In this document: piece after piece, positions 9,601 to 44,176 of the stretch
Numbering within the stretch: position 1 is the first letter of the stretch
How the letters are laid out: the number at the start of each line of letters is the position of its first letter
IMG/VR virus record: IMGVR_UViG_3300008740_000012
Location: 1 to 52,667 of that record
Reading direction: 5' to 3' (one strand)
DNA from: a virus
DNA length: 52,667 nt
Program-made: the position numbers and the translations under genes
Notes under the pieces: generated by a model
Told to the model about the DNA's origin: nothing
The model's input: only the letters and a program-made list of their open reading frames with translations
Databases searched by the model: none

Positions 9601-10357
9601 AGTAAGTGCCAATGACAGAAGATTTGAATCTGCCGGGTGGGGCAACCCTGGAACAGCAGGAACTACAGAATCTGGTGGTGCAGGAGGGGCAGAAGTGATG
9701 GTTACAACACCAGGGTATTCACAACATCCACACTATAATGCCGGATATGATGTTACTATTTTTGGTGTGGGCGATGGATCAGGTGATGGATATCCATATT
9801 CTGGTAATGGAGGAGCCTGTGTTTATTTGGTTTCTAATGTGAGCTTTTCTGTGTCAGGAACCAAAGTTGAACTCATAAATAAAACTGGCGGAATAATGAA
9901 AACTGGTGGAGGAGGTGGCTCTGGCGGAAATGGAACTGAAGGGTTGGGCGGTGGAGATTTAGGAAAACCCGGAAAGGGATATCCGGGGATGAATACAAAT
10001 GAAGATGCCCTTTCCAATGGATTTCGTGGAGTAGAAGAAGGTGGACAAAAAAGTTGGCATGATTGGACAAGAAGAGGAGAGCCTGGAAAACTCGTATGGT
10101 GGAATACATCAAATTTGACGAGTAGTTATACAGTCACAAATGAATCTACAAACAAATCCTATGCAATTGAAGGTATGGATTATAATTCTGAAATAGGAGA
10201 TTGGGATTATGTTTCATATGCTCCTGATATAAGTAAAAATGGAATAAATTATAAAGGAATGGCAATTTGGTCAAGAAAAACAGGAACTGAATTTGGTCAA
10301 TTGGTTTATACTGCAATAGGCGAAAGAAGTTTTGAAGATTATTTTGACAGTCTATAA
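6614..10357 (+). CDS. Large tail-fibre protein with C-terminal glycine-rich adhesin domain
   Basis: This 1,247-residue protein starts one base after the preceding stop. Its N-terminus (R-x-L-I-G, then G-L-Y-V-S-K-P-G-A-N-V, then F-D-S-x-x-P) is shared with the 1,018-residue protein encoded further downstream, suggesting a common virion-docking module. From about residue 650 to the end there is a second module: an L-D-I-T-D segment, G-R-Y-Y-T-V-V-F-P, L-N-I-P-E-G-V, D-P-C-I, then long Gly runs at about 835-1150. The same order of motifs makes up the 398-residue protein at 48318-49514. Glycine-rich fibre tips of this kind are known from T4-like adhesins such as gp38 of phage S16. A GC-rich patch lies at 7250-7375. 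Receptor binding is inferred. Confidence 0.7.
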   Translation: MDRVLIGKGTTNTTSSYYHRSGKQGLYVSKPGANVNNCPDGDLMFDSTTPTFLQILGRGAATVPSQTYSYGVFGEKYSKENPGEPLLTDDNWRLSGEGLPKEINAQTSWLFDGLKSLRDDIKSLIETFAIPYKISLPEQLIEELAEVQPPVGPIELEPNSWTIDNLAGEIGTPEHSLENYEVTGWNRTIPLKDVWKYEISDEDLQRYYDYAYGVGWHNLPQTDLGNSKGVYEFESLWDVWFNARAATINWNTVAEQSRFIVLFLFSMLPNLDDDDYIRKMIAKYWRIIDVFPFFADIPLGAGLNVKSSIDEVITNTENNFNGSQLPEVFYSGISTETPSYYFDGNRYVLVPDQEAIGTDKNALIYTHGDSLWQNAWYNYIQNNTVYNASGIPVHYATYPDKTAYSGESMAMDASFLPEMQHPEILNFPRPWRAWTDERTGKFSVYAERQAAAEFYHMMLLFSFLQDDVGNFVNSNPEAWEYKRQPSDYFFNIVSTRPGYTIDSGNPSSFLDYHYRPKASATTRTWKSINPKNNWGYSHWSDGKIEVSSGIAPPLLNSPVQVWWNPISRRFGNTVMNLTFLESKANLIKEATSEKRIRLLKPEVPTIYANTYVQDNDLKIAFEHPSSKEEAQVYFTFFKEVASEVIFARIELDITDINDPNNPGNNYAGRRSIPESEGGTGDGRYYTVVFPDDFIKTRGSESEEDPFHLYRNADGKIDKRLQVTLNIPEGVELSGNGHNNHITLEQLSMVSGLPAFQGATAYGPKDTDGRGSQEKFAMVDPCIKINLNSTEWTETALRGLEIKIENNGTMVGAGGWGQYGQMVVPDKWQYKNPGGGGGGGAGYHPTLEEEFPQVDWIGAANILTPTWAVQTSADGEPGVQSSEEVDVTLEASSTHWQGPNNYVEWGIGRDPISNTAFTYMDQISWDSVGPGKPGTGYLGATPHTIINQPPTEYPYYDSFASIPSEGPFIDIYSRLPGTYWYEDMDTLVVPGEGVQAGVSANDRRFESAGWGNPGTAGTTESGGAGGAEVMVTTPGYSQHPHYNAGYDVTIFGVGDGSGDGYPYSGNGGACVYLVSNVSFSVSGTKVELINKTGGIMKTGGGGGSGGNGTEGLGGGDLGKPGKGYPGMNTNEDALSNGFRGVEEGGQKSWHDWTRRGEPGKLVWWNTSNLTSSYTVTNESTNKSYAIEGMDYNSEIGDWDYVSYAPDISKNGINYKGMAIWSRKTGTEFGQLVYTAIGERSFEDYFDSL
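7250..7375 (+). other. GC-rich patch in the second large fibre gene
   Basis: About 125 bases with mostly G/C-ending codons interrupt an AT-rich gene without breaking the frame. No domain was recognised. It parallels the patches in the other two large fibre genes. Confidence 0.35.
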
Positions 10358-10377
10358 GGAAAAAACAAAATAGTAAC

Positions 10378-10602
10378 ATGTCGTCAATCAAAACAACCAT
10401 ACATAGAATAAGCCAAAAAGGAAAGTCTGCTATTCTTACCATACAAGATGGAGATATTATTTTGCTTGATAAAAAAAATGTTGGCATTCAATTTAATGAT
10501 GACGGAACAGCAAATACAGAATGGTTAAAATTATATACAAAATATGTTGCCTATCATAAGCGATTGGTAAGAATAGATGAAACCGAAAAGGATTTATTAT
10601 GA
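10378..10602 (+). CDS. Small fibre-associated protein, paralogue of the gene at 49530
   Basis: A 74-residue soluble protein with T-I-Q-D-G-D followed by D-K-K-N-V-G-I-Q-F-N-D-D-G. The 83-residue protein at 49530-49781 has T-I-K-D-N-D and D-K-K-N-I-G-L-Q-L-D-E-N-G in the same order, so the two are paralogues. Each sits directly downstream of a glycine-rich adhesin sequence, which suggests a conserved partnership such as a chaperone, adaptor or small virion subunit. The stop overlaps the next start (ATGA), implying translational coupling. No named family was recognised. Confidence 0.7.
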   Translation: MSSIKTTIHRISQKGKSAILTIQDGDIILLDKKNVGIQFNDDGTANTEWLKLYTKYVAYHKRLVRIDETEKDLL

Positions 10603-11132
10603 GACAAAATAAGTTTATTGTCACAAAGAATCATTTTTTAATGCTCGCAGGTTCTAATGAAATTGGCGATGAGTTGTGGGCAGGGCATGTTGAATTTAAT
10701 AAGGATGATTTTGAAAACAAACAAATAAATTCAATAGGGTTTATTGTGAGTGGAACTGTAAACTCTTTTATGAATAGTTCTGATGACCTTGCAAACGTAT
10801 CTTGGGAACCATATGCATCGGCATCTGCGCCTTTGATGCTTCCAAGAAAAAGCTTTACAAATTTTGGAATTGTTTCTACTTCTGAAAAATCTATGTTTGG
10901 TTCAATACAAGCCAGAGAAAATATATTTTCTGGACAAAATGTATCTGTTATGTATGGAATATTGAAAGAACAAGAAAAGACAAAAATCAAATCAGAAGAA
11001 CAGGAAACAGTAAATGTTTCTGATAAATGTAAAATATATAGAAAAAGAGATCTAAATAATTTTATGCTTGTTCCAGAAGAACCACTCAACATTCATACAA
11101 TTTTAGATTCTGAAATTGAAATTGAAGGATAA
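10599..11132 (+). CDS. Fibre-associated protein of unknown function
   Basis: A 177-residue protein starting at the ATG of an ATGA overlap. It has no signal or membrane segment. Its central part (F-I-V-S-G-T-V-N, a Trp-containing segment, A-P-L, then G-I-V-S-T) can be aligned loosely by eye with the 159-residue protein at 50245, which has F-Y-A-E-G-S-L-N, a Trp segment, S-P-L and G-A-V-S-T. Both follow the small D-K-K-N-x-G protein in their clusters, so this is probably part of a duplicated fibre/adhesin module. Function unknown. Confidence 0.6.
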   Translation: MRQNKFIVTKNHFLMLAGSNEIGDELWAGHVEFNKDDFENKQINSIGFIVSGTVNSFMNSSDDLANVSWEPYASASAPLMLPRKSFTNFGIVSTSEKSMFGSIQARENIFSGQNVSVMYGILKEQEKTKIKSEEQETVNVSDKCKIYRKRDLNNFMLVPEEPLNIHTILDSEIEIEG

Positions 11133-16256: not shown

Positions 16257-16907
16257 ATGCCCACAAATCCACACATCAATAACTTTACAAACACACCAGA
16301 GCAAACTCTTGTTGAGGATTTGTTAATCGAGAGTATCAAATTTTATGGAATGGATGTCCATTGGATTCCAAGAATTACATCCAGTAGCCCAGATCAAATT
16401 TTTGGCGAAGATACTCTTGCCAGTTTCAGTTATAACCGCATGATTGAAATGTATATTAAGAATGTGGAGGGATTTGAAGGACAAGGCGATTTTCTTTCCA
16501 AGTTTGGGCTGGACATACGAGATCAAATTACATTCACGGTTGCCATCCGAAGATTTGAACAACTTGAATCTGGATATTCCCGCCCACGCGAAGGAGATTT
16601 GATTTACTTCCCACTCAACAAGAAGTTATTTGAAATTCAATTTGTTGAGCATGAGAGCATGTTCTATCCAACAGGAACCCTGCCTGTATATGATCTTCGT
16701 TGTGAACTATTTGCATATAATCAACAGTCCATCAACACAGGCATTGATGAGATTGATCAAATAGCACTGACCACTGGTCCGCGAGGTCAGGCATTTACTT
16801 CAAATGCACTTGCTGTCACAACCGACAAGGAAGACAATCTTTCCATTGAAGACAGAGCCGATGCAATTCTCGATTTCAGTGATTCTAATCCATTTGGGAG
16901 TTTCTAA
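16257..16907 (+). CDS. 14: Neck protein gp14
   Basis: A 216-residue protein with E-D-L-L-I-E-S-I-K-F-Y-G near the N-terminus and P-R-E-G-D-L-I-Y-F-P in the middle, both familiar in marine T4-like gp14. It directly follows gp13 and precedes gp15. Role in head completion and neck assembly follows from T4. No unusual feature. Confidence 0.87.
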   Translation: MPTNPHINNFTNTPEQTLVEDLLIESIKFYGMDVHWIPRITSSSPDQIFGEDTLASFSYNRMIEMYIKNVEGFEGQGDFLSKFGLDIRDQITFTVAIRRFEQLESGYSRPREGDLIYFPLNKKLFEIQFVEHESMFYPTGTLPVYDLRCELFAYNQQSINTGIDEIDQIALTTGPRGQAFTSNALAVTTDKEDNLSIEDRADAILDFSDSNPFGSF

Positions 16908-16910
16908 ATT

Positions 16911-18371
16911 ATGTTATCCGAAGCATTTTCACATGGGCTGATACGAGATTTTGTGGTTGCCTTTGGTACATTGTTTAACAATATCAAAATAAATAGACGA
17001 GCAGCCAGTGGTGAAACCGAAGACACAATTGCAATTCCTTTGTCTTATGCTCCACAACAAAGATATCTTGAACGAATTACACAAGATCTAAATCTGGATC
17101 GACCTGTTGCCATGTCTCTGCCAAGAATGTCATTTGAAATAATTTCAATGAATTATTCTTCTGAAAGAAAATTGAATACAATGCAGAGATACTATGGAAA
17201 AAGAACAGATGCCTCAAATACAGAAATATCTTCGTCATATGCTCCTGTTCCATATGATTTTAATTTTCAGTTGAGTGTATTCATTACCAACATTGAAGAT
17301 GGAACACATATTGTTGAACAAATCCTTCCATATTTTACTCCTGAATTTACACTCAGCCTAAAAAGTGTTACTGAATTGGGTGTTGCGTTAGACCTTCCGG
17401 TTGTTCTTAACTCGGTAAACATGGAAGATAGTTATGAGGGGGGTTTTGATGAAAGAAGAATTATAATTTGGACTTTGGATTTTACATTGAAAGGTCATTT
17501 GTTTGGTCCGGTGGCCAATTATGGTTTGATCAATAAAGCCATAGTTAATTTTCACACATCATCAAATACTGCAATTGCAAATAATTATGAACAAATGGTT
17601 AGTCAGCCAGCAATGTTTGCAAATGGAAGTTCAACAAATTCGGCAGCATTGAGTGTTCAATTCAATTTGATTGCTTCCAACAGTGATTATGGAATTTCAC
17701 AAGAAATATATGGGATAGACGAAGACCCGAATACATTTAAACTGTGGGATTTTGAACAAGGATCTCATCAACAAACTGTATCTTTTGGGCCCTGGGCAGG
17801 AAATACATCGTATGATGGTTGGGAATCATTTGAGGCTGGATTGACTGCAAATGGAGATGTTGTTCTTTCCAGACCCCATTCTTTTTTGAGACATACAATA
17901 TCAAAAACTGCACCTCTTTTGGGCACATCAGCTTATAGCGAAGATGCTCAGTTACGAATATATGCAAATTCAACACCAAAGGATACATTTTCACAATTCT
18001 ATGGAAAGAATTATCAAAATGTGTCCATGAGATTCAGAATCAAGGACACCAATAGTACCGGAGATAGTGTGTTTACTTGGAAAGGGCAGTTAAGATGGTT
18101 GACCACAGATAGTCTTGAAAAAGAATGGTCAAGCGGAACCACAAATAGATATATCGAATCCGGCACTCCCTCTGATTATACCACCAGTGATTTTGATGTA
18201 CTTTCACAAAACTTTCAAACCATTAACTTTGACCTTTCTGGAAGGGATGATTGGAATGATAGAATTATTACAGGTCTTTGGATTGACCTTTTTAATGCCG
18301 GAGATAATAATAGCGAAATGGTCATTGAAACAGACATAGATTATATTAAAATTTCTGCAAATACAGGATAA
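16911..18371 (+). CDS. 15: Tail completion/sheath terminator gp15 with extra C-terminal lectin-like domain
   Basis: Residues 1 to about 215 are gp15-like: an N-terminal R-D-F-V-V-A-F-G-T-L-F-N-N-I segment, then P-x-M-S-F-E-I, P-Y-D-F-N-F-Q-L and F-x-L-K-G. In T4, gp15 caps the tail and connects it to the neck. Here about 270 extra residues (about 220-486) follow, so the product is 486 residues against 272 for T4 gp15. The extension is rich in Trp, Asp and Ser, begins with an L-W-D-F-E-Q-G segment and ends in I-T-G-L-W-I-D-L and I-D-Y-I-K-I. These are hallmarks of beta-sandwich carbohydrate-binding-type domains. It may decorate the neck. The fusion is seen directly; the fold is inferred. Confidence 0.82.
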   Translation: MLSEAFSHGLIRDFVVAFGTLFNNIKINRRAASGETEDTIAIPLSYAPQQRYLERITQDLNLDRPVAMSLPRMSFEIISMNYSSERKLNTMQRYYGKRTDASNTEISSSYAPVPYDFNFQLSVFITNIEDGTHIVEQILPYFTPEFTLSLKSVTELGVALDLPVVLNSVNMEDSYEGGFDERRIIIWTLDFTLKGHLFGPVANYGLINKAIVNFHTSSNTAIANNYEQMVSQPAMFANGSSTNSAALSVQFNLIASNSDYGISQEIYGIDEDPNTFKLWDFEQGSHQQTVSFGPWAGNTSYDGWESFEAGLTANGDVVLSRPHSFLRHTISKTAPLLGTSAYSEDAQLRIYANSTPKDTFSQFYGKNYQNVSMRFRIKDTNSTGDSVFTWKGQLRWLTTDSLEKEWSSGTTNRYIESGTPSDYTTSDFDVLSQNFQTINFDLSGRDDWNDRIITGLWIDLFNAGDNNSEMVIETDIDYIKISANTG

Positions 18372-18377
18372 TAAATT

Positions 18378-18803
18378 ATGAATAACAAAGAAAAAATTGA
18401 ACAACTAGAACTTTTGCCCCCAGAAGATGATTCGTTGGTGGAAACAACAGAACGACATACACACCAAGACCAAGACTATGAATATGTTCGCAACAATCTA
18501 CAAAACATCATTGACACCGGCAGCACGGTACTTCAGGGAATTGTAGAACTGGCAGAAGAGTCTGACCATCCGAGAGCATATGAGGTTGTCGGTCAAATCA
18601 TGCGTCAGCTTGCAGAGACGAACAAGGATCTTATTGAACTTCAGAAAGACATGAAGAAGATCAAAAATGAAGAGTCTGCCAAGAAAGTGACACAGAATGC
18701 AATTTTTATGGGTTCGACTGCCGAACTTCAGAAATTCCTTCGGGGACAAGGGCATCTCAGTCAAAAGATAAAGGATGCAAAGACAAAGAAAGTCGATGGC
18801 TGA
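18378..18803 (+). CDS. 16: Small terminase subunit gp16
   Basis: A 141-residue, highly charged helical protein immediately before the large terminase and overlapping it by 8 bases. The central segment (R-A-Y-E-V-V-G-Q-I-M-R-Q-L-A-E-T-N-K-D-L) followed by a basic C-terminus fits T4-like gp16, which recognises DNA and regulates gp17. Length and position match the family. Confidence 0.85.
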   Translation: MNNKEKIEQLELLPPEDDSLVETTERHTHQDQDYEYVRNNLQNIIDTGSTVLQGIVELAEESDHPRAYEVVGQIMRQLAETNKDLIELQKDMKKIKNEESAKKVTQNAIFMGSTAELQKFLRGQGHLSQKIKDAKTKKVDG

Positions 18804-35051: not shown

Positions 35052-35522
35052 ATGACGGTTGACACTGGCAGTCAATATGAGAAACTTATTGAATCTGCAT
35101 TGAGGAACCATTCAACATATGATTTTGAAGCCCAATATGACCTTGGAATAAAACCCAGCGGAAAGCGACACCGAGCCGATATTTTTTTGGTTAACACCAA
35201 AGAAGTTATTAGTTTGAAAACTCAATCTGTGGGGGGTACTTCCGAAGAAAAAATTCCATATGAAGTATATGTTTTGCAACATGCAGTAAACAAAGGTAAT
35301 TGCAAGTCTGCAACCATTGTACTTCACGGCAATGGATGGAGAGAAAAGGATTGGTATCTATCAGGAGAGTTTTGTTTTAACATGAATTGCCCAGATGTAA
35401 AGATAATTGACCATGATGAGTTCATGAAAGAATATATTGACCACTCCATATGCAGAAATGATAAGGTGGGATTAGAAAAGTTTTTTGTGAGGATATGTTG
35501 TGACGACAATGACAACCAATAA
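35052..35522 (+). CDS. PD-(D/E)XK-type endonuclease
   Basis: The ATG at 35052 follows GGGGGAAGTAAAA. The 156-residue protein has E14 in a helix (K-L-I-E-S-A-L), then R-A-D-I-F at 41-45 and I-S-L-K-T-Q at 53-58, followed by G-G-T-S-E-E-K-I-P-Y-E-V. D43 plus K56 fits a PD-(D/E)XK nuclease core in which the second acid is replaced by Ser54, a known kind of variation. It may act as a restriction-type or DNA-processing enzyme. The neighbouring gene resembles a DNA-modification protein, raising the possibility of a cutting/protection pair. Confidence 0.6.
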   Translation: MTVDTGSQYEKLIESALRNHSTYDFEAQYDLGIKPSGKRHRADIFLVNTKEVISLKTQSVGGTSEEKIPYEVYVLQHAVNKGNCKSATIVLHGNGWREKDWYLSGEFCFNMNCPDVKIIDHDEFMKEYIDHSICRNDKVGLEKFFVRICCDDNDNQ

Positions 35523-36483
35523 TAATACCCTAATGAAATTCATGAATGATAACGAAAATGCAGAGCATGATGGATATATCCCTCCGCATGAGCGTTTCGA
35601 GAAATACGATGGCGACAAGTGTTGGCAAGGGCATCTGAGAGAATTGCACCATGAGCAGGATCTCAAGGATGCCAATTTGACACATGCAGAGGCAGCCGCA
35701 CTTCGTACATCAGATTTTGAATTTGAATATATCCCCAAGGATGACAAGGCAAAATGTCAACAGTTGATTAAATTCATTGAACGTCATGAGTGGCTGGGAA
35801 AAATGCCGACATGGCTCACGCACAGATTCGCATGGTATCTCGACGTACCCGGAAAACCCCGTGTTCTGGCTGGTGTCATCATCATGGCAACGCCGAATGC
35901 ATTTTCCAATCTGCTTGGCCCAGAAAACAGACACAAAGAAAAGCTGATTGCGCGTGGTGCCTGTATCTCATTCGGACCCAAGAATCTTGGGAGTCATATC
36001 ATCATGGAAGCCATCAAATGGATGGTCAAGAATACAGAGTTTCGCTTTTTTACGGCATACTCTGACCCTGATGCCAAAGAACTGGGCACTATATATCAGG
36101 CATGTTCATTTGCCTATTTGGGCCAAAGCAGCGGAACCAAGTATCAGTATTTCGTTCCCGGCAAAGGCTGGAAAGGCGACAAGGCATTTACCGAACGTTC
36201 CGAGTATGTACGTCATGCAAAAGACCTCGGAATTGAATTTCTGCCAGAGTGGCGGAAGGGTGGCAAAATCAACTGGAAGAATGTTCCAGATGAGGTTGCC
36301 GCAAAACTGAAACAGGCTGCAACTGCAAAGAAGGCATCATGCAAGAAACGCATTGCGGCACCCAAGCACAAGTATGTATTTGTGTTGGGCAGGGGCAAGA
36401 AGGAAACGAAGCGTCTAAGAAAATTGTTATTTGAGAACAACCCACAGTTGCCTTTGGAATATCCCAAGAACAGAGGTATATGA
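35500..36483 (+). CDS. GNAT-fold protein resembling Mom DNA-modification family
   Basis: The GTG at 35500 lies 6 bases after GAGGA; ATG codons at 35509, 35533 and 35542 are alternatives. The 327-residue protein has a charged N-terminus and then a GNAT-like core. It contains V-L-A-G-V-I-I-M, K-L-I-A-R-G-A, a helix before I-M-E-A-I-K-W-M-V, and A-Y-S-D-P-D-A-K-E-L-G-T-I-Y-Q-A-C-S-F-A-Y-L-G-Q. The last block (Y-[S/A]-D-P ... G-T-I-Y-Q-A) is what I recall of phage Mu Mom and relatives, which modify adenine to evade restriction. A basic C-terminus (about 270-327) could bind DNA. It overlaps the nuclease gene by 23 bases. Confidence 0.55.
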   Translation: MTTMTTNNNTLMKFMNDNENAEHDGYIPPHERFEKYDGDKCWQGHLRELHHEQDLKDANLTHAEAAALRTSDFEFEYIPKDDKAKCQQLIKFIERHEWLGKMPTWLTHRFAWYLDVPGKPRVLAGVIIMATPNAFSNLLGPENRHKEKLIARGACISFGPKNLGSHIIMEAIKWMVKNTEFRFFTAYSDPDAKELGTIYQACSFAYLGQSSGTKYQYFVPGKGWKGDKAFTERSEYVRHAKDLGIEFLPEWRKGGKINWKNVPDEVAAKLKQAATAKKASCKKRIAAPKHKYVFVLGRGKKETKRLRKLLFENNPQLPLEYPKNRGI

Positions 36484-36504: not shown

Positions 36505-36536
36505 CACACACACACACTATTGTTATTGTTATTGTT
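36505..36536 (+). repeat. Simple-sequence repeats in an intergenic gap
   Basis: A CA run (36505-36517) is followed by alternating ATT/GTT triplets (to 36536) between two genes. An AAGGAGG sequence at 36484-36490 has no start codon at usable distance. Similar low-complexity tracts recur at 38781, 38855 and 41530. Confidence 0.6.
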
Positions 36537-37955: not shown

Positions 37956-38267
37956 ATGTCTGGTGTACAGAGAATGAATAGACGAGAATTCATGATGTCG
38001 TCGTTTTTGTTGGTCATGCCGGGTTTTGTTGTAAAATCGGCTCAGGGTGACACAGAAAAGCTAATTACAGATATATCTGCAAATGGTCCGATGATTGCGG
38101 CACTTCAATTTGTGGGTGAATCCATAGTGCCAGATCAGAATTGCGGCAATTGTCAACTCTATAAGGCAGGAGAAGGCAGTACAGGAAAGTGTCAATTATT
38201 TGTTAGTGGCAATGTCCCTAAAGATGGTTGGTGCATATCTTGGGCCAAAAAAGTGGCGTTATATTGA
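37956..38267 (+). CDS. High-potential iron-sulfur protein (HiPIP) with Tat signal
   Basis: The 103-residue protein follows AAGGAG. Its N-terminus has a twin-arginine motif (N-R-R-E-F-M, about 8-13) and a hydrophobic stretch (14-27), as in Tat-exported cofactor proteins. The mature part has C63-x2-C66-x12-C79-x13-C93, with C-G-N-C-Q-L-Y and G-W-C-I-S-W around the ligands. This is the HiPIP pattern (a periplasmic [4Fe-4S] electron carrier). All four cysteines and the aromatic shell are present. HiPIPs are typical of Proteobacteria; I know of no phage example. It may have been taken from the host and could feed electrons to a redox enzyme. Possibly linked to the IscA and di-iron genes 4 kb downstream. 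Confidence 0.85.
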   Translation: MSGVQRMNRREFMMSSFLLVMPGFVVKSAQGDTEKLITDISANGPMIAALQFVGESIVPDQNCGNCQLYKAGEGSTGKCQLFVSGNVPKDGWCISWAKKVALY

Positions 38268-38308
38268 AAAAGCACAAAAAAAGCTAATATGGTGCGTCAT
38301 ATGACGCA
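38264..38308 (+). promoter_or_regulatory. Candidate promoter with 16-bp palindromic operator
   Basis: TTGAAA (38264-38269), a 15-base spacer and TAATAT (38285-38290) are followed two bases later by the perfect palindrome TGCGTCATATGACGCA (38293-38308). The palindrome would sit at the transcription start, a classic operator position. The spacer is short, so the promoter is weak or needs help. Confidence 0.4.
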
Positions 38309-38404
38309 GTGCATCATGTTATGTACAGATAACCTTCAATCTTACGTGTTCTAAGCCCGCGAGAGTACGCGCCACGCGCCTGATTTCGCATCACGCCTAA
38401 CAAG

Positions 38405-38424
38405 TTCTCAAAGAGTCTCTGAGA
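38405..38424 (+). repeat. 20-bp repeat copy 1 (forward)
   Basis: Matches the consensus TTCTCARAGANTCTYTGAGA, with A and C at the R and Y positions. The element is nearly palindromic, so orientation is set by R/Y. Confidence 0.75.
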
Positions 38425-38518
38425 AACCCGGTTATATTCAAATAAGTTTAACATATATGCTGAAATGAATGATTCGCGCATATGCTCGCCTGCTCACTGA
38501 GTTGCTCCTCCTCCAGAA

Positions 38519-38532
38519 TTCTCATATGAGAA
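38519..38532. repeat. 14-bp perfect palindrome
   Basis: TTCTCATATGAGAA is its own reverse complement. Its ends match the outer bases of the 20-bp repeats nearby (TTCTCA ... TGAGAA), so it may be a shortened version of the same recognition site. Confidence 0.6.
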
Positions 38533-38660
38533 CACAACATATACACACATTTCTCTGAGAGGCCCCGTATATGGGGGGCCTATATGGGGTTTTGATGCTC
38601 CATATATGCGACACCTGATTACCTAGATTCAGCCGCCCCACAGGCAGGCTGCCCTGAAGA

Positions 38661-38680
38661 TTCTCAGAGAGTCTTTGAGA
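38661..38680 (-). repeat. 20-bp repeat copy 2 (reverse)
   Basis: Has G and T at the R and Y positions, which makes it the reverse-orientation form of copy 1 with one central mismatch. It lies 32 bases before the terminator stem. Confidence 0.75.
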
Positions 38681-38711
38681 CATCTCAACATATATAATTA
38701 AATATCAATAC

Positions 38712-38745
38712 ACCCCTGGTACAGCAATGTATCAGGGGTTTTTTT
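38712..38745 (+). terminator. Rho-independent terminator inside the non-coding region
   Basis: A 12-bp stem (ACCCCTGGTACA with TGTATCAGGGGT, one G-U pair) is closed by a GCAA tetraloop and followed by a run of seven T. This is among the strongest terminators in the window, with no gene directly upstream of it. Confidence 0.9.
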
Positions 38746-38807
38746 GTGGCCTTTTTTTATATTCAAAGATTCACTGAGTATGTGTGTGTGTATATGTGCA
38801 TTGTGTA

Positions 38808-38919
38808 TTTCTCAAAGAATCTCTGAGATTTTATGTGTATGAGGCAAACACACATACATACACATACATACATACACACACACAAATTTAAATTATATTC
38901 TCAGAGATTCTTTGAGAAA
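38808..38919. repeat. Perfect 21-bp inverted repeat pair (copies 3 and 4)
   Basis: Copy 3 (38808-38828) and copy 4 (38899-38919) are exact reverse complements over 21 bases, separated by 70 bases of TG/CATA/CA microsatellite. They could form a cruciform or a long RNA hairpin. A partial extra half-site follows copy 4 at 38921. Confidence 0.8.
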
Positions 38920-39100
38920 CTTTGAGAAAACACACATACATAACACAACATAACATTGCATAGCATGACACGGGCCAGGGGGTGGGCCATTAGTACAGTA
39001 GGCGGGGCCCAGAAACTAACATGGGGTTTAGCATCATTAAAAAATATTTAAGCTGAAATTTTTTTCTCAAAAGTCGGATGCCTATATATTTCATAATAAT

Positions 39101-39652
39101 ATGGAGCCTCCTAATGATATGCACATATATGACAACCGCATAGATTCTCAGAGAATCTCAAAGATTTTCCATGAAGTCGCAAGGCTTCCCTATTACTATG
39201 GGGAACAGGACAATCCCTGGACGGCACCCACCGGAATGGTTTCAAATATACATGACCTTTCTTCTTCTTTTGTTTTCAAGACACTCAATGACTTCTATAT
39301 GGAAAACAAAAAAGACGAATGGTTTTGCGAATTGGAACGTGCCTATGTGAACATCTTTGCCCCAGGGGAGATGCCCTTCTACCATACAGATGCAGACTTT
39401 CCTGATGGTTGCACCACTCTGATGTACTATGCGAATCCTGAGTGGATATATGACCACGGAGGAGAAACAAAGTTTATTGACCTCAAAGATGATTCAAAGA
39501 TTATTTCGGTGGCACCCATCCCTGGAAGAATTGTCATATTCAATGGAAACCAAGAACATACTGCCACATCATTCAGAAGCCATCATAGATTCTCGGTGGT
39601 ACTGAAGTACGGAACAGAAGAAGAAAATCAACAACGACGTTCTGTATTATAA
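39101..39652 (+). CDS. 2OG-Fe(II) dioxygenase (prolyl-4-hydroxylase type)
   Basis: A 183-residue protein with the complete 2OG-Fe(II) motif: H95-T-D97 (F-Y-H-T-D-A-D), distal H153 (N-Q-E-H-T-A) and R163 (S-H-H-R-F-S) for 2-oxoglutarate. T-L-M-Y-Y-A-N-P-E-W and G-G-E-T-K-F lie between. Such enzymes hydroxylate proteins, nucleobases or small molecules and are common in marine T4-like phages. The ATG at 39101 has no clear ribosome-binding site; an ATG at 39119 with GGAG 12 bases upstream is an alternative. A diverged copy of the local 20-bp repeat lies inside the gene at 39145-39164. Confidence 0.88.
   Translation: MEPPNDMHIYDNRIDSQRISKIFHEVARLPYYYGEQDNPWTAPTGMVSNIHDLSSSFVFKTLNDFYMENKKDEWFCELERAYVNIFAPGEMPFYHTDADFPDGCTTLMYYANPEWIYDHGGETKFIDLKDDSKIISVAPIPGRIVIFNGNQEHTATSFRSHHRFSVVLKYGTEEENQQRRSVL
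39145..39164 (+). repeat. Diverged copy of the 20-bp repeat inside the oxygenase gene
   Basis: TTCTCAGAGAATCTCAAAGA matches the repeat consensus except at two of the last five bases. It shows the element also occurs in coding sequence. Confidence 0.5.
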
Positions 39653-39655
39653 ATA
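39648..39655 (+). promoter_or_regulatory. Late promoter TATAAATA before the 39715 gene
   Basis: An exact TATAAATA overlaps the stop of the oxygenase gene and lies 59 bases upstream of the next start, with GTT/ATT repeats in between. Confidence 0.7.
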
Positions 39656-39714
39656 ATAAAAACACATATTGTTGTTAATGTTGTTATTATTATTGGGGAG
39701 AGCACATCATCCAT

Positions 39715-40731
39715 ATGTCGGAAACAGAAAATCATCATCTATCCATGAACAGCTTCTATCAACACAGTCTTGAAGAAGACGCAGCATGGACAAAGAGTGC
39801 ATCCCAGCATATCTTTACAATGGATGTTCATCTTCCAATGAGTACATCCATGTACAAAAGAATCTTTGAAAAGAAAAAGCCGCCACGTATGACCGTCTTT
39901 CATGTGACCAATCCACAGTATCTTGATGATATGATTAAACTGCAAGGAAAGAAGAAATCAATCTCGGCACTGACTCATGCCCACAAAGATATTATTTCGG
40001 GTGGCATCAACGTAAAGGGTGGATTGGTATTTCAACTGGAAGCAGATATTTTGATTTCTTCGCCACATGACATCATGTCCCGCCCTGATAAAACAGGAAG
40101 GAGATGGCTGGAATTGTTTTATCTGTCTTCCATCAATAACAGCTTGGCAAATGACATGGCCATAGATGGAAGAAAATTAATCAATGGATTGGCCGAGAAG
40201 TATTTGGGTCACAAGGTTCCCATTAATTCTACGTTCAAAGTCTGGACCGAGATGGATCCAAGAAACGAAAAGTCGCCCATTGCACCCCATCATAAATTCA
40301 GCAGGCGAGACAAGAACATGGCAAAGGGCCACAAGCAGATTCAACTTCTGACAAGAAAACTGTTGCATGGTATGGTGAAAGACTACATTGATGCAATGGA
40401 AAAACTTATGAAAAAATACGAAAAACCACTTGCAGAAACTCTATGGAAACATGCTGCCAGCCAATCCAAGTATACAAACACAAATTCTTGGGATGAGTAT
40501 GTCGTAAATAGATTTCAAATTCAGAAAATTCTGATTGATAGAGCAACCATCAAATCGCGATTTGGTGGAAGAGATATGGACGACGATGAACGCACAGAAC
40601 ATTTTGCGATTTTGCTTGCCAAACTCATAAATAAAAACCTTGAATATGAAATCTTTGACAATGCATCACAGGTGGCAGTCGAAATCGCAAAAATAAGTCA
40701 TCGTCATGCACAACAAGATCAAAAACAATGA
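39715..40731 (+). CDS. Hypothetical protein, possibly ADP-ribosyltransferase-like
   Basis: A 338-residue soluble protein. The segment V-F-H-V-T-N, then K-S-I-S-A-L-T and G-G-L-V-F-Q-L-E is compatible with the His, Ser/Thr and beta-strand pattern of ADP-ribosyltransferase-like folds. It is followed by S-R-P-D-K-T-G-R-R-W. No complete catalytic triad could be confirmed. If translation began at the ATG at 39745, the N-terminus (M-N-S-F-Y-Q-H-S-L-E-E) would resemble the capsid-targeting-like leaders of other late genes here. It overlaps the next gene by 4 bases (ATGA). Confidence 0.45.
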   Translation: MSETENHHLSMNSFYQHSLEEDAAWTKSASQHIFTMDVHLPMSTSMYKRIFEKKKPPRMTVFHVTNPQYLDDMIKLQGKKKSISALTHAHKDIISGGINVKGGLVFQLEADILISSPHDIMSRPDKTGRRWLELFYLSSINNSLANDMAIDGRKLINGLAEKYLGHKVPINSTFKVWTEMDPRNEKSPIAPHHKFSRRDKNMAKGHKQIQLLTRKLLHGMVKDYIDAMEKLMKKYEKPLAETLWKHAASQSKYTNTNSWDEYVVNRFQIQKILIDRATIKSRFGGRDMDDDERTEHFAILLAKLINKNLEYEIFDNASQVAVEIAKISHRHAQQDQKQ

Positions 40732-41339
40732 AATCCTTTACACAATACCACAACAATCTGAGTGAACAAAAGAGACTCATGAAACCTCTCTTGAAGTTCA
40801 CAAAGAAACACATCAAGTCTCGGGATTTGATTACGTTGAGCAGTTTTCCTGAAGTGCAGACTCCTCTCAAGAAACACAGGCAACCCGGAAAGAAAGATGG
40901 ATTCATGCTAAAGCCTGAAGGAATCTGGTTTGGTATTGGAGACTCATGGATTAATTGGCTGGAGTCCGAGATGCCGGATTGGGCACAACCATCCATCATG
41001 AAGATTGAAGTCAATTTTTCACGGATGTTGAACATCCGAAAAGATTCAGATTTGGATGTATTCACAGAGAAGTATCAGTACATGGACAAAAAGTATGGAA
41101 TGTGGATGGCCGACTGGAGAAAGGTTGCCGAGGATTATGACGGAATCATTCATTGGAGATGGCCATCAGCGCGGCCCGGAGGGAGGTCAGCCGGAACCCA
41201 TGCCACAAGAGAGAACCCACGACAAATCTGGTACGGATGGGATGTACGCTCTGGATGTATCTGGAACCCGGCAGGCATCAAGAAGATGTCAGTCTTTGGA
41301 AGATATGACGAAGACAAGAAAGAATATGTCAAGATATAA
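40728..41339 (+). CDS. Hypothetical protein with capsid-targeting-like N-terminus, possibly ART-like
   Basis: A 203-residue protein. It begins M-K-S-F-T-Q-Y-H-N-N-L-S-E, matching a leader shared by several late genes in this window and resembling the T4 internal-protein leader. The body has K-P-E-G-I-W-F-G-I-G-D-S-W-I-N-W, E-D-Y-D-G-I and W-Y-G-W-D-V-R-S-G-C-I-W-N. This pattern recurs in marine phage proteins; an ADP-ribosyltransferase-type fold is my tentative guess. T4 packages and injects an ADP-ribosyltransferase (Alt), which makes the idea worth testing. It overlaps the lipoprotein gene by 14 bases. Confidence 0.45.
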   Translation: MKSFTQYHNNLSEQKRLMKPLLKFTKKHIKSRDLITLSSFPEVQTPLKKHRQPGKKDGFMLKPEGIWFGIGDSWINWLESEMPDWAQPSIMKIEVNFSRMLNIRKDSDLDVFTEKYQYMDKKYGMWMADWRKVAEDYDGIIHWRWPSARPGGRSAGTHATRENPRQIWYGWDVRSGCIWNPAGIKKMSVFGRYDEDKKEYVKI

Positions 41340-41520
41340 TTATTATATCATCCTATTATTATTATCTTTTTTTGGTTGTGGTATTGGTGGTAGTGCCAAC
41401 AACAATGAATGTCTCATATGGCAAAATATCGAGGCATGTGTTCCTCATTATTGTTCCTGTGAAGAAGTCATTACTTCAGGAGCAGCATGTGGGTGTGTGA
41501 AGGAGGATGCACATAAATAA
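41326..41520 (+). CDS. Small Cys-rich lipoprotein
   Basis: A 64-residue product starting inside the previous gene. A hydrophobic segment (about 6-17) ends F-F-G-C18, a lipobox-like site. The mature part has Cys at 18, 29, 38, 43, 45, 55 and 57 and the motif E-C-L-I-W-Q-N. A second small lipoprotein at 43612 has G-C-L-V-W-Q-I. A role in spanin-type lysis or superinfection exclusion is possible but unproven. Confidence 0.55.
   Translation: MSRYNYYIILLLLSFFGCGIGGSANNNECLIWQNIEACVPHYCSCEEVITSGAACGCVKEDAHK
41512..41519 (+). promoter_or_regulatory. Possible late promoter variant CATAAATA
   Basis: One base off TATAAATA, overlapping the lipoprotein stop, 42 bases before the next gene. The same variant occurs at 24662 in a comparable position. 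Confidence 0.4.
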
Positions 41521-41561
41521 TAGGTAGTACAATAACAACACACACACACATACACACATAT

Positions 41562-41900
41562 ATGGAAAACGACGACAACAATAACAACGACAACAATTCT
41601 GATAAATGGCCCTGGAGTATCACAGACAGAGAGTTTGGTGCATTGGAACAGGAAGTAAAAGAAATTCGTCATGTATACAGAAATCTTAAAATGATTGTAA
41701 ATGAATCAGGGATTTCCCATATTGACAAAGACGACATCAATGCATTTCGCGACGGCCTGACCAACCTTGAAGAAAGACTCAAGGGAATTGATTCCTTTCA
41801 AGAAGACATTATCAAATTAAAAATCAAAGTATATACTGCATTTTCTGTTATTGGAATCCTTGCGGCAATTATTGTATGGATAGTCGAGGCAATAACATGA
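41562..41900 (+). CDS. Tail-anchored coiled-coil membrane protein
   Basis: A 112-residue protein with an Asn/Asp-rich N-terminus (1-14) encoded by AAC/GAC repeats, a helical charged middle (25-85) and a single C-terminal transmembrane helix (about 91-109). It overlaps iscA by 4 bases (ATGA). The leader contains a CA microsatellite. No family recognised; the topology would suit a membrane tether or lysis accessory. Confidence 0.55.
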   Translation: MENDDNNNNDNNSDKWPWSITDREFGALEQEVKEIRHVYRNLKMIVNESGISHIDKDDINAFRDGLTNLEERLKGIDSFQEDIIKLKIKVYTAFSVIGILAAIIVWIVEAIT

Positions 41901-42229
41901 TTGACATGACACAAAAAGCAGCAGAGATGATCAAATACCAATTAGGGAATTCGTCTGTCTATTCAAATGACTCGGCACTACGAATCAAGATTATTGGGGG
42001 TGGGTGTTCAGGTCTTCGATATAATATGTCTTTTGATAAAAATATAAATAAAGATAGTGATTATATAAAAGAAGAATACGGAGTAAGGCTTGTCATTGAT
42101 GAAAAAAGCGCGCTCTACATGGTAGGTTCACAATTGGATTTTGTGGACGAATTAATGGAAACAGGATTCAAAATCAATAATCCTAATGCCAAGAATTCTT
42201 GTGGTTGTGGCGAATCTTTTGGGGTGTAG
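41897..42229 (+). CDS. A-type iron-sulfur cluster carrier (IscA/ErpA/HesB family)
   Basis: The start at 41897 uses the ATGA overlap. The 110-residue protein has the three conserved cysteines of A-type carriers: C37 in I-G-G-G-C-S-G-L, and C102 and C104 in S-C-G-C-G-E-S-F. Their spacing matches E. coli IscA almost exactly. The segment L-D-F-V-D-E-L-M-E-T-G-F-K-I-N-N-P-N-A is also typical. It would deliver Fe-S clusters or iron to apo-proteins. It lies directly upstream of a di-iron oxidase gene and 4 kb from a phage HiPIP gene, so it may help mature phage iron proteins. Confidence 0.92.
   Translation: MIDMTQKAAEMIKYQLGNSSVYSNDSALRIKIIGGGCSGLRYNMSFDKNINKDSDYIKEEYGVRLVIDEKSALYMVGSQLDFVDELMETGFKINNPNAKNSCGCGESFGV
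42043..42050 (+). promoter_or_regulatory. TATAAATA inside iscA
   Basis: An exact late-promoter octamer about 205 bases upstream of the di-iron oxidase start. Being inside an AT-rich gene it may be chance. Confidence 0.25.
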
Positions 42230-42255
42230 AAAAAGAAGAAAGAAAAAAAAGCACA

Positions 42256-43347
42256 ATGAAATTTCATCAAAAAAATCCTATACCGCTCCCCGAAGTAGGA
42301 GCCACTTCTTCAATCAAATCAACAATAGAAACTGTCTTCGATTGGGAATACGATCTCAAGAGAAAGAATCTTTTAAACCTCTACGAAAAAGGAAAAGCAC
42401 TCAACTGGAATGCAACTGAGCTTCCCTGGGAAACTGATGTAGACATAGAAAAGATTCAAAAGACCCGAATGAAAAATGGCGCAGGAGACATGATGCGTGC
42501 CACGCTGATTCCTCCAAAGCCGGTAGATGATGAATTTTTAATGACATTGGGAATTGAACAAAATGCATTCATGTTGAGTCAGTTTCTTCATGGAGAACAA
42601 GGGGCACTCGTTGCAACAGCAAAACTAGTTCAGGCCTGCCCGGATGAAGAAGCAAAGTTCTATGCCGCAAGTCAGGTATTGGACGAAGCTCGCCATGTAG
42701 AAGTTTATCATCGTTATCTCACAGAAAAATTGGGCACAAGCTATCCCATTCTTCCTTCACTTGGCAATCTGCTTGATGATGTCATTGAAGCAAAGGATTG
42801 GGATATGTCATTTCTGGGAATGCAAATCATGGTAGAAGGGATTGCCCTTGGCGCATTTGCATTCGTGAAGTTGTCCAATCCAGATGAACCTCTCATTCTT
42901 GAAATCACAGAAAGAGTCATGCAGGATGAGTCTCGTCATGTTGCCTTTGGTGTACTGACATTAGAAGATATGTACAAAGATGGGTTATCAGAAAATGAAA
43001 TGCGTGAGCGAGAAGATTTTGTTCTTGAGGCATCTCATGTTTTGAAAGAAAGACTCAACAGCGACCAAGTTCTTGAACGACTCGGAATCAATACACCAGA
43101 TTGGCTTGAATGGCAAAGGAACTCTCCTTATCTTCGTGGGATTACAAGCATGGTATTTTCAAAAGTTGTTCCTAATCTAAAGCGTATTGGATTATTGACG
43201 CCTCGGGTTCGCAAGGCATATGAGCAAATGAATCTGATTCATTTTGAACACGGAAAGGATTCATTAGAAGATGTGACTGTAGAGATTCCTGATGAATTAG
43301 TGAAATCGTTGACAACAATGATAGGAGAAAATACACATGCCAAGTAA
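42256..43347 (+). CDS. Ferritin-like di-iron oxidase/oxygenase (R2/AurF-like)
   Basis: The ATG at 42256 was chosen; an upstream in-frame ATG at 42199 lies inside iscA. The 363-residue protein has a full carboxylate-bridged di-iron set in a four-helix bundle: E114 (H-G-E-Q-G-A-L), E144 and H147 (L-D-E-A-R-H), E194 (V-E-G-I-A-L-G), E225 and H228 (Q-D-E-S-R-H). Spacing of about 30 between E and ExxH is classic for R2-like, AurF-like and acyl-desaturase proteins. It is not class I NrdB: length and surroundings differ and no NrdA is near. Substrate unknown; its electrons could come from the HiPIP. Confidence 0.85.
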   Translation: MKFHQKNPIPLPEVGATSSIKSTIETVFDWEYDLKRKNLLNLYEKGKALNWNATELPWETDVDIEKIQKTRMKNGAGDMMRATLIPPKPVDDEFLMTLGIEQNAFMLSQFLHGEQGALVATAKLVQACPDEEAKFYAASQVLDEARHVEVYHRYLTEKLGTSYPILPSLGNLLDDVIEAKDWDMSFLGMQIMVEGIALGAFAFVKLSNPDEPLILEITERVMQDESRHVAFGVLTLEDMYKDGLSENEMREREDFVLEASHVLKERLNSDQVLERLGINTPDWLEWQRNSPYLRGITSMVFSKVVPNLKRIGLLTPRVRKAYEQMNLIHFEHGKDSLEDVTVEIPDELVKSLTTMIGENTHAK

Positions 43348-43615
43348 CAATACATTTTTCACATCAAGACAATGGGATATCAAAAAACAATTGATTGACC
43401 AAACAGGGCACGCTGTCTATGCGATATTAGTTCTATTGCCTGTTCTCTTGATTCCAAACATAATTTTAGGAACAACAACATCAGCATTGGCATGTGGAAT
43501 AATTCGTGAATGGGAACAGTGGAGAAAAGCAGAAAGTCTTCATCTATTTGACAGAATCTTGGATGTTTGTTTCTTCGGTGTTGGTGGAATTATTATAGGA
43601 AGCATATTATCGTGA
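43337..43615 (+). CDS. Two-helix inner-membrane protein
   Basis: A 92-residue protein starting inside the end of the di-iron gene. After a polar N-terminus with D-I-K-K-Q-L-I-D-Q-T-G-H it has a long hydrophobic region (about 25-55), the charged segment R-E-W-E-Q-W-R-K, and a second helix (about 72-91). Size and topology resemble small phage membrane proteins such as class II holins, but no endolysin lies next to it. The stop overlaps the next start (GTGA). Confidence 0.5.
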   Translation: MPSNNTFFTSRQWDIKKQLIDQTGHAVYAILVLLPVLLIPNIILGTTTSALACGIIREWEQWRKAESLHLFDRILDVCFFGVGGIIIGSILS

Positions 43616-43788
43616 AGATAACAATTTTAACAATAATAATGTTTCTCTCTTTTGGGGCATGTACAACACCCACAACAGAAAACCCAACAAATCCAGAAGC
43701 AGATGATCCAATCATAGAAGGAGAAGAAGTGGTTGCTCCGATTGGGTGTCTTGTTTGGCAAATAAATGATCCAAATGCCGACTGCTAA
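43612..43788 (+). CDS. Small lipoprotein, GTG start
   Basis: A 58-residue protein starting at GTG in a GTGA overlap. The hydrophobic N-terminus ends L-S-F-G-A-C17, a plausible lipobox. A Pro/Asn/Glu-rich linker follows, and the C-terminus holds G-C-L-V-W-Q-I and a final Cys. The C-L-(V/I)-W-Q motif is shared with the lipoprotein at 41326. Candidate outer-membrane lipoprotein of an Rz1-type spanin or an exclusion factor. Confidence 0.55.
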   Translation: MKITILTIIMFLSFGACTTPTTENPTNPEADDPIIEGEEVVAPIGCLVWQINDPNADC

Positions 43789-44176
43789 TACAAATTACAT
43801 AGACGACACAATAGAAGTATTCAATAGAGTACATGCTGGGTTTAAGTATGTCACAGACGAGGTACAATATCCAGAGTCAATAGATGATTGGAGAATTCCC
43901 AAGGATTTTGATCGGGTCACAGGAGACTGTGATGATTTTGCCATTGCATGTAGAACTCTTCTCAAAGAGAAAGGTCACAAGCCTCGGCTTCTTTATTGTA
44001 GAGCCGAAACTGGAGAAGGGCATCTTATTTGCATATTAGGAAAAATGGCACTTGATAACAGAATGTTCAAGGCAGTGGAAATTACAGAATTAACTAGACG
44101 AGGTTACATTCTTATTTCAGTGAGTGGAACTGAGCCTGGAGAATATTGGCGAAGTGTAGAGGATGTTGTTATTTAA
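43766..44176 (+). CDS. Transglutaminase-like cysteine protease (BTLCP/LapG-like)
   Basis: A 136-residue protein with F-K-Y-V-T-D, D-D-W-R-I-P, catalytic C55 in T-G-D-C-D-D-F-A-I-A, H86 in G-E-G-H-L-I and probably D97. This matches bacterial transglutaminase-like cysteine proteinases, a group that includes LapG, which releases biofilm adhesins. It has no signal peptide, unlike LapG, so it would act in the cytoplasm or after lysis. It starts inside the lipoprotein gene (ATG at 43775 is an alternative). Its end overlaps the convergent minus-strand gene by 8 bases. Confidence 0.75.
   Translation: MIQMPTANTNYIDDTIEVFNRVHAGFKYVTDEVQYPESIDDWRIPKDFDRVTGDCDDFAIACRTLLKEKGHKPRLLYCRAETGEGHLICILGKMALDNRMFKAVEITELTRRGYILISVSGTEPGEYWRSVEDVVI

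Follow-up and report, generated by a model that had tools for sequence, protein, structure and literature searches.

The window analyzed here, a 52.7 kb virus record (52,667 nucleotides), carries a gene for an A-type Fe-S carrier (IscA/ErpA-like) directly ahead of a gene for a ferritin-like di-iron protein, raising the question whether these two, together with a HiPIP and a 2OG-Fe(II) oxygenase encoded nearby, work as an iron module or came to lie side by side independently. The record contains a T4-type gene set comprising terminase, portal, major head protein, a UvsW-type helicase, SbcCD/gp46-47 and a tail sheath stabiliser. The four genes and the frame directly ahead of IscA are all on the plus strand. 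The IscA gene (41897–42229; 110 residues) starts with the ATG at 41897 and overlaps in an ATGA with the upstream frame, which encodes a 112-residue protein (41562–41900) and whose stop ends at 41900. The ATG of the di-iron gene (42256–43347; 363 residues) follows 26 bp past the IscA stop. Upstream of IscA lie the genes for the HiPIP (37956–38267; 103 residues) and the 2OG-Fe(II) oxygenase (39101–39652; 183 residues; PF13640, 34.5 bits against a cut-off of 27; phrog_274, 2.5e-24), the span from HiPIP to the di-iron gene being 5.4 kb (37956–43347). The original prediction had named these four families, their spacing and the intact metal ligands of two of them, and Pfam and NCBIfam scores as well as the ligand alignment confirmed it in each of these respects; all four are genuine genes rather than chance open reading frames. 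Simple repeats, (ACAC/ACAT)n and (AAC)n, occur at 36518–36536, 38848–38956 and 41538–41597, in or near intergenic gaps and before start codons.

The carrier retains all three cysteines (Cys37, Cys102 and Cys104; C...CxC) and scored 110.4 bits against TIGR00049 (cut-off 58.8) and 61.8 bits against Pfam Fe-S_biosyn (PF01521; cut-off 26.3). The NCBIfam equivalogs for IscA, ErpA and SufA stayed below their cut-offs, with 91.5 versus 150.6, 99.5 versus 117 and 82.4 versus 136.2 bits, respectively. On these scores, we classify the protein as a generic A-type carrier. Its nearest relatives belong to the same Myxococcota class as those of the di-iron protein (59% identity to G091, 55% to G088 and G090), compared with up to 47% for phages and up to 52% for the remaining sampled bacteria. 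The IscA tree agrees with this affinity, although the window sequence lies within no starred branch. Fe-S assembly genes of the SufA/IscU type are an auxiliary gene class already described in marine virus genomes (PMC5332604); the window likewise represents a phage carrying an Fe-S assembly protein, but its A-type carrier has a Myxococcota affinity and adjoins a di-iron oxidase.

The HiPIP shows the four cluster cysteines (C-x2-C-x12-C-x13-C) and exceeds the gathering score of PF01355 (45.2 bits; cut-off 22). Its amino terminus, judged by eye, contains an RR pair of the Tat type, suggesting that the protein is probably exported by this route and periplasmic. The best match, at 56% identity, again belongs to the same Myxococcota class, compared with at most 38% among 143 Gammaproteobacteria, a comparison covering two bacterial classes only. 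No HiPIP was present in the phage records, and a Pfam search of 31 related viral records detected none either; a Tat-type HiPIP is therefore unusual in a phage. A pattern scan of the viral contigs, built from a single sequence and of low power, also yielded none.

Comparison with a sister contig, G048, shows how far the neighbourhood is retained. The two are collinear across structural and replication genes, mostly at 55–80% identity, and also share a Mom-like DNA modification protein (phrog_1384; window 35500–36483; 81% identity). Window segments 39715–40731 on the left and 43552–44176 on the right match G048 17161–18726 and 16259–16939, respectively, which are near neighbours there. The plus-strand block that holds IscA and the di-iron gene (40728–43615; about 2.9 kb), located between a 338-residue gene and a lipoprotein/protease pair, is missing between these matching flanks. 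The protease of this pair, a PF06035 transglutaminase-like cysteine protease (43766–44176), adjoins the small lipoprotein in the window, and the pair is kept in G048. HiPIP, 2OG oxygenase and di-iron genes are absent from G048. As G048 is a fragment, such genes could be located beyond its ends, but the stretch matching the block region is present. Its IscA is diverged (36% identity) and placed differently, about 1.1 kb from the homologue of the 112-residue protein (10293–10703; 48% identity). Among viral records with the di-iron gene, 7 of 43 contain an IscA-type gene compared with 2 of 40 control T4-like records, a difference that is not significant (Fisher p = 0.16). In none of the 43 does IscA adjoin the di-iron gene; five viral loci sharing a uvsW context have it within about 5 kb on the opposite strand. 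The 30 loci fetched around Myxococcota orthologues, some of them duplicates and some short, yielded no IscA. The absence from G048 and the lack of IscA adjacency in relatives thus indicate that the four-gene module is not conserved: the genes are scattered and independent in relatives, the outcome that the original prediction had itself named as refuting it.

The di-iron protein displays the full ligand set E114, E144xxH147, E194 and E225xxH228. In an alignment with 160 relatives, all 80 viral sequences and at least 79 of the 80 bacterial ones carry each ligand. E114, E144, H147, E194 and H228 are invariant across all 161 sequences, as are H112, Q115, D143 and Q190, and E225 is missing only at one locus, L061, a short contig with a seemingly disturbed reading frame. 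The window protein keeps 52 of the 54 columns that are at least 97% conserved in the remaining rows. An AlphaFold model (pLDDT 88.8, pTM 0.89) folds like R2 and R2lox proteins, and Chlamydia NrdB and R2lox share the place of closest structure (Z of about 22.8; about 250 residues superposed at rmsd 3.0). The conserved ligands and this predicted fold fit the ferritin-like di-iron superfamily, which is defined by the pattern E...ExxH...E...ExxH on a four-helix core. No signal sequence was seen. The window protein resembles R2lox (GkR2loxI; PMC10867098, PMC6060897) in fold (Z about 22), in its six-ligand 2-His/4-Glu set, in being a single chain of similar length and in the frequent location of bacterial relatives near lipid genes. 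The two differ in sequence, with about 16% identity and an R2lox NCBIfam equivalog score of 37.1 bits against a cut-off of 194. They also differ at what we take to be the positions of the Val-Tyr ether cross-link of R2lox, which are A117 and M189 in the window, Ala in 160/160 relatives and Met in 157/160 (Gly in three). Scores for aldehyde deformylating oxygenase (PF11266; 16.6 versus 28 bits) and DUF455 (PF04305; 31.5 versus 34.3 bits) were below gathering, and PHROGs holds no family for the protein.

A motif-weighted scan located the di-iron family at at least 587 bacterial loci and on at least 110 viral contigs, many of them T4-like and with several genome contexts; both counts are lower bounds from two patterns, which were chosen with the help of a consensus row, and tblastn using the window protein as query confirmed every match. 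Viral loci L092–L095, close to the Acidimicrobiaceae locus L024, may be bacterial contig ends and were left out of the phage evidence. Despite this abundance on uncultured T4-like contigs, none of 50,697 sequenced phage records gave a match in tblastn, whether the query was the window protein or a viral relative. Scanning the viral contigs with patterns from one sequence, based on peptides that proved not to be conserved, returned nothing, and the family was absent from 40 MCP-related viral records, many of which are short fragments. Literature searches, with partial coverage, retrieved no description of the family in phages and no characterised member. IscA and the 2OG oxygenase are the ordinary part of the finding; the di-iron family appears to be undescribed in phages.

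In the di-iron tree the main viral clade forms one long-branched group. The window copy falls outside it, nested among Myxococcota sequences with support of 100/98 and 98/89. The Myxococcota label is based on the L016 and L019 records and on the taxonomy attached in the tree to L013 and others. Orthologues from this phylum share 55–60% identity with the window protein, compared with about 45% for the next paralogues. In one Myxococcota class, represented by 90 genomes, the family occurs in 83 genomes and the 55–60% orthologue in about 26, with up to 21 family copies per genome. Expansions of 14 to 21 copies were observed in G128, G187, G137, G116, G118 and G134, all from this class, which is also that of G091. 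The nearest relatives of the di-iron protein, IscA and HiPIP fall in different genomes of the class. As the di-iron protein is nested in Myxococcota, IscA less firmly so, and the best HiPIP match comes from the same class, these genes are probably host-derived. For the di-iron and IscA genes in particular, the sequence affinities suggest that they were probably acquired by a phage of that class, and the simplest reading would be that the phage infects, or once infected, one of its members. The GC content of the window genes is phage-like (0.36–0.42) compared with 0.61–0.74 in the bacterial loci, so that any transfer would be old.

Clues to the substrate come from the neighbours of relatives, for which we considered homology-supported open reading frames only, because crude gene calling is unreliable in high-GC genomes. 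In most bacterial orthologues the gene immediately upstream encodes a TetR regulator, and an acyl-CoA synthetase gene adjoins the di-iron gene in three bacterial orthologue loci. On phage contig L145 (9189–11053), a fatty-acid desaturase gene overlaps the di-iron start by one base in an operon-like arrangement, the only such neighbour among 80 viral loci. R2lox proteins are fatty-acid binders, one of which has been reported as an alkane hydroxylase (PMC10867098). Based on these neighbours and on R2lox, acyl or lipid oxidation is our leading guess for the reaction, put forward tentatively. Few neighbours carry this part of the interpretation, and ten viral contigs of one lineage (L139, L140, L141, L142, L143, L144, L146, L148, L165 and L166), in which the di-iron gene is immediately preceded by one for an alternative oxidase (PF01786, 230 bits; e.g. 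L139:3333–3905), might rather hint at redox balance.

The fold class accommodates several other activities. An N-oxygenase of the AurF kind, or another oxygenase of the natural-product type acting on an amine or small metabolite, would be in line with the Pfam AurF model, which matches 44 of 47 members of the family (1e-23 for the strongest), and with the repeated E...DExxH spacing and second-sphere Asp pair (D143, D224) shared with AurF. The window protein itself, however, is not matched by AurF at E 0.01, and the neighbours are unlike a biosynthetic cluster. AurF N-oxygenases are marked by a seventh ligand, a His located four positions ahead of the last Glu and giving a 3-His/4-carboxylate site, and CylC-type dimetal halogenases by the motifs QExxH and HxxDExxH (PMC12101540). 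The window family belongs to the same di-iron oxygenase fold class as these enzymes (PMC12101540, PMC8406957) but lacks the third His, AurF H223 being replaced by V221 in the window and by Val or Ile in all aligned relatives, and the motif at 143–147 is DExxH, with Asp rather than Gln at 143. An enzyme of this type is hence unlikely. A divergent ribonucleotide reductase small subunit aiding phage DNA synthesis would share the fold, and Y151, four residues after the first ExxH His and also found in the Myxococcota orthologues, falls at the position of the R2 radical tyrosine. This position is Phe in 80/80 viral and 45/80 bacterial relatives, which alone does not exclude R2, because class Ic R2 proteins also carry Phe there. 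Against R2 stand further the tail of the window protein, whose final 35 residues contain no Tyr for radical transfer to NrdA, phage contig L111, which has separate NrdA and NrdB genes beside its di-iron gene, and the many paralogues per bacterial genome, making an R2 role barely credible. Judged by its own residues, we conclude that the protein is neither an AurF, a CylC halogenase nor an R2lox, and that it is probably not an R2; it is best called a member of an uncharacterised ferritin-like di-iron oxidase/oxygenase family.

A redox or O2-consuming function, either with the alternative oxidase as O2 or electron sink or in iron or peroxide detoxification during infection, is suggested by the ten viral loci in which this oxidase, also a di-iron protein, precedes the di-iron gene. 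Yet these loci form one lineage, no alternative oxidase gene was found near the di-iron gene in other viral or bacterial loci, nor in the window, and the predicted R2-like single chain is not a ferritin cage subunit, so that we regard such a role as rather improbable. The original prediction had HiPIP reducing the di-iron enzyme, IscA supplying iron or clusters and the 2OG oxygenase acting in the same pathway. The clustering of the four genes and the common affinity of IscA, HiPIP and the di-iron protein for one Myxococcota class speak for it, and several of these genes point to one donor lineage; a functional module is not supported. Beyond the missing conservation in G048 and other di-iron phages and the missing adjacency in the donor class, electron transfer from HiPIP is unlikely, because HiPIP is probably periplasmic whereas the di-iron protein shows no signal sequence, so that the two are probably in different compartments. 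For their assembly, carboxylate-bridged di-iron sites use O2 together with Fe(II) (or Mn/Fe); they need ferrous iron and do not accept Fe-S clusters, so that no cluster carrier is required, which argues against IscA feeding the enzyme. Altogether, such a module is very unlikely, while an iron enzyme modifying a metabolite remains plausible for the di-iron protein itself.

We therefore favour, at about an even chance for the reading as a whole including function, two adjacent auxiliary genes, each probably taken up on its own from a host lineage within the Myxococcota, in a variable block of the genome of a T4-like phage. The di-iron protein would be a cytosolic, O2-activating oxidase or oxygenase with a 2-His/4-Glu centre, presumably loaded with Fe(II) (or Mn/Fe) from the cell pool. 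Di-iron oxygenases draw electrons from ferredoxin- or flavin-type donors, and a host donor of this kind may reduce the enzyme, which would then oxidise an organic substrate, probably of the acyl or lipid type. During infection, it may supplement a host pathway whose usual regulator is of the TetR type. IscA would act independently in the manner of A-type carriers, whose clients are Fe-S apoproteins; it would pass clusters to such proteins rather than serve the di-iron site, and could help to load the phage HiPIP before its Tat export.

On a wider scale, it is conceivable, though doubtful at present, that uncultured T4-like phages commonly carry this undescribed di-iron oxygenase family as an auxiliary gene, captured more than once from bacteria and using O2 to remodel the lipids or acyl chains of the infected host, with the window being a T4-like phage of the Myxococcota class. 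The gene ancestry suggests a host, open to testing, for a lineage of T4-like phages, and the substrate of the family would reveal a new way in which phages intervene in metabolism as well as a function for a large bacterial family.
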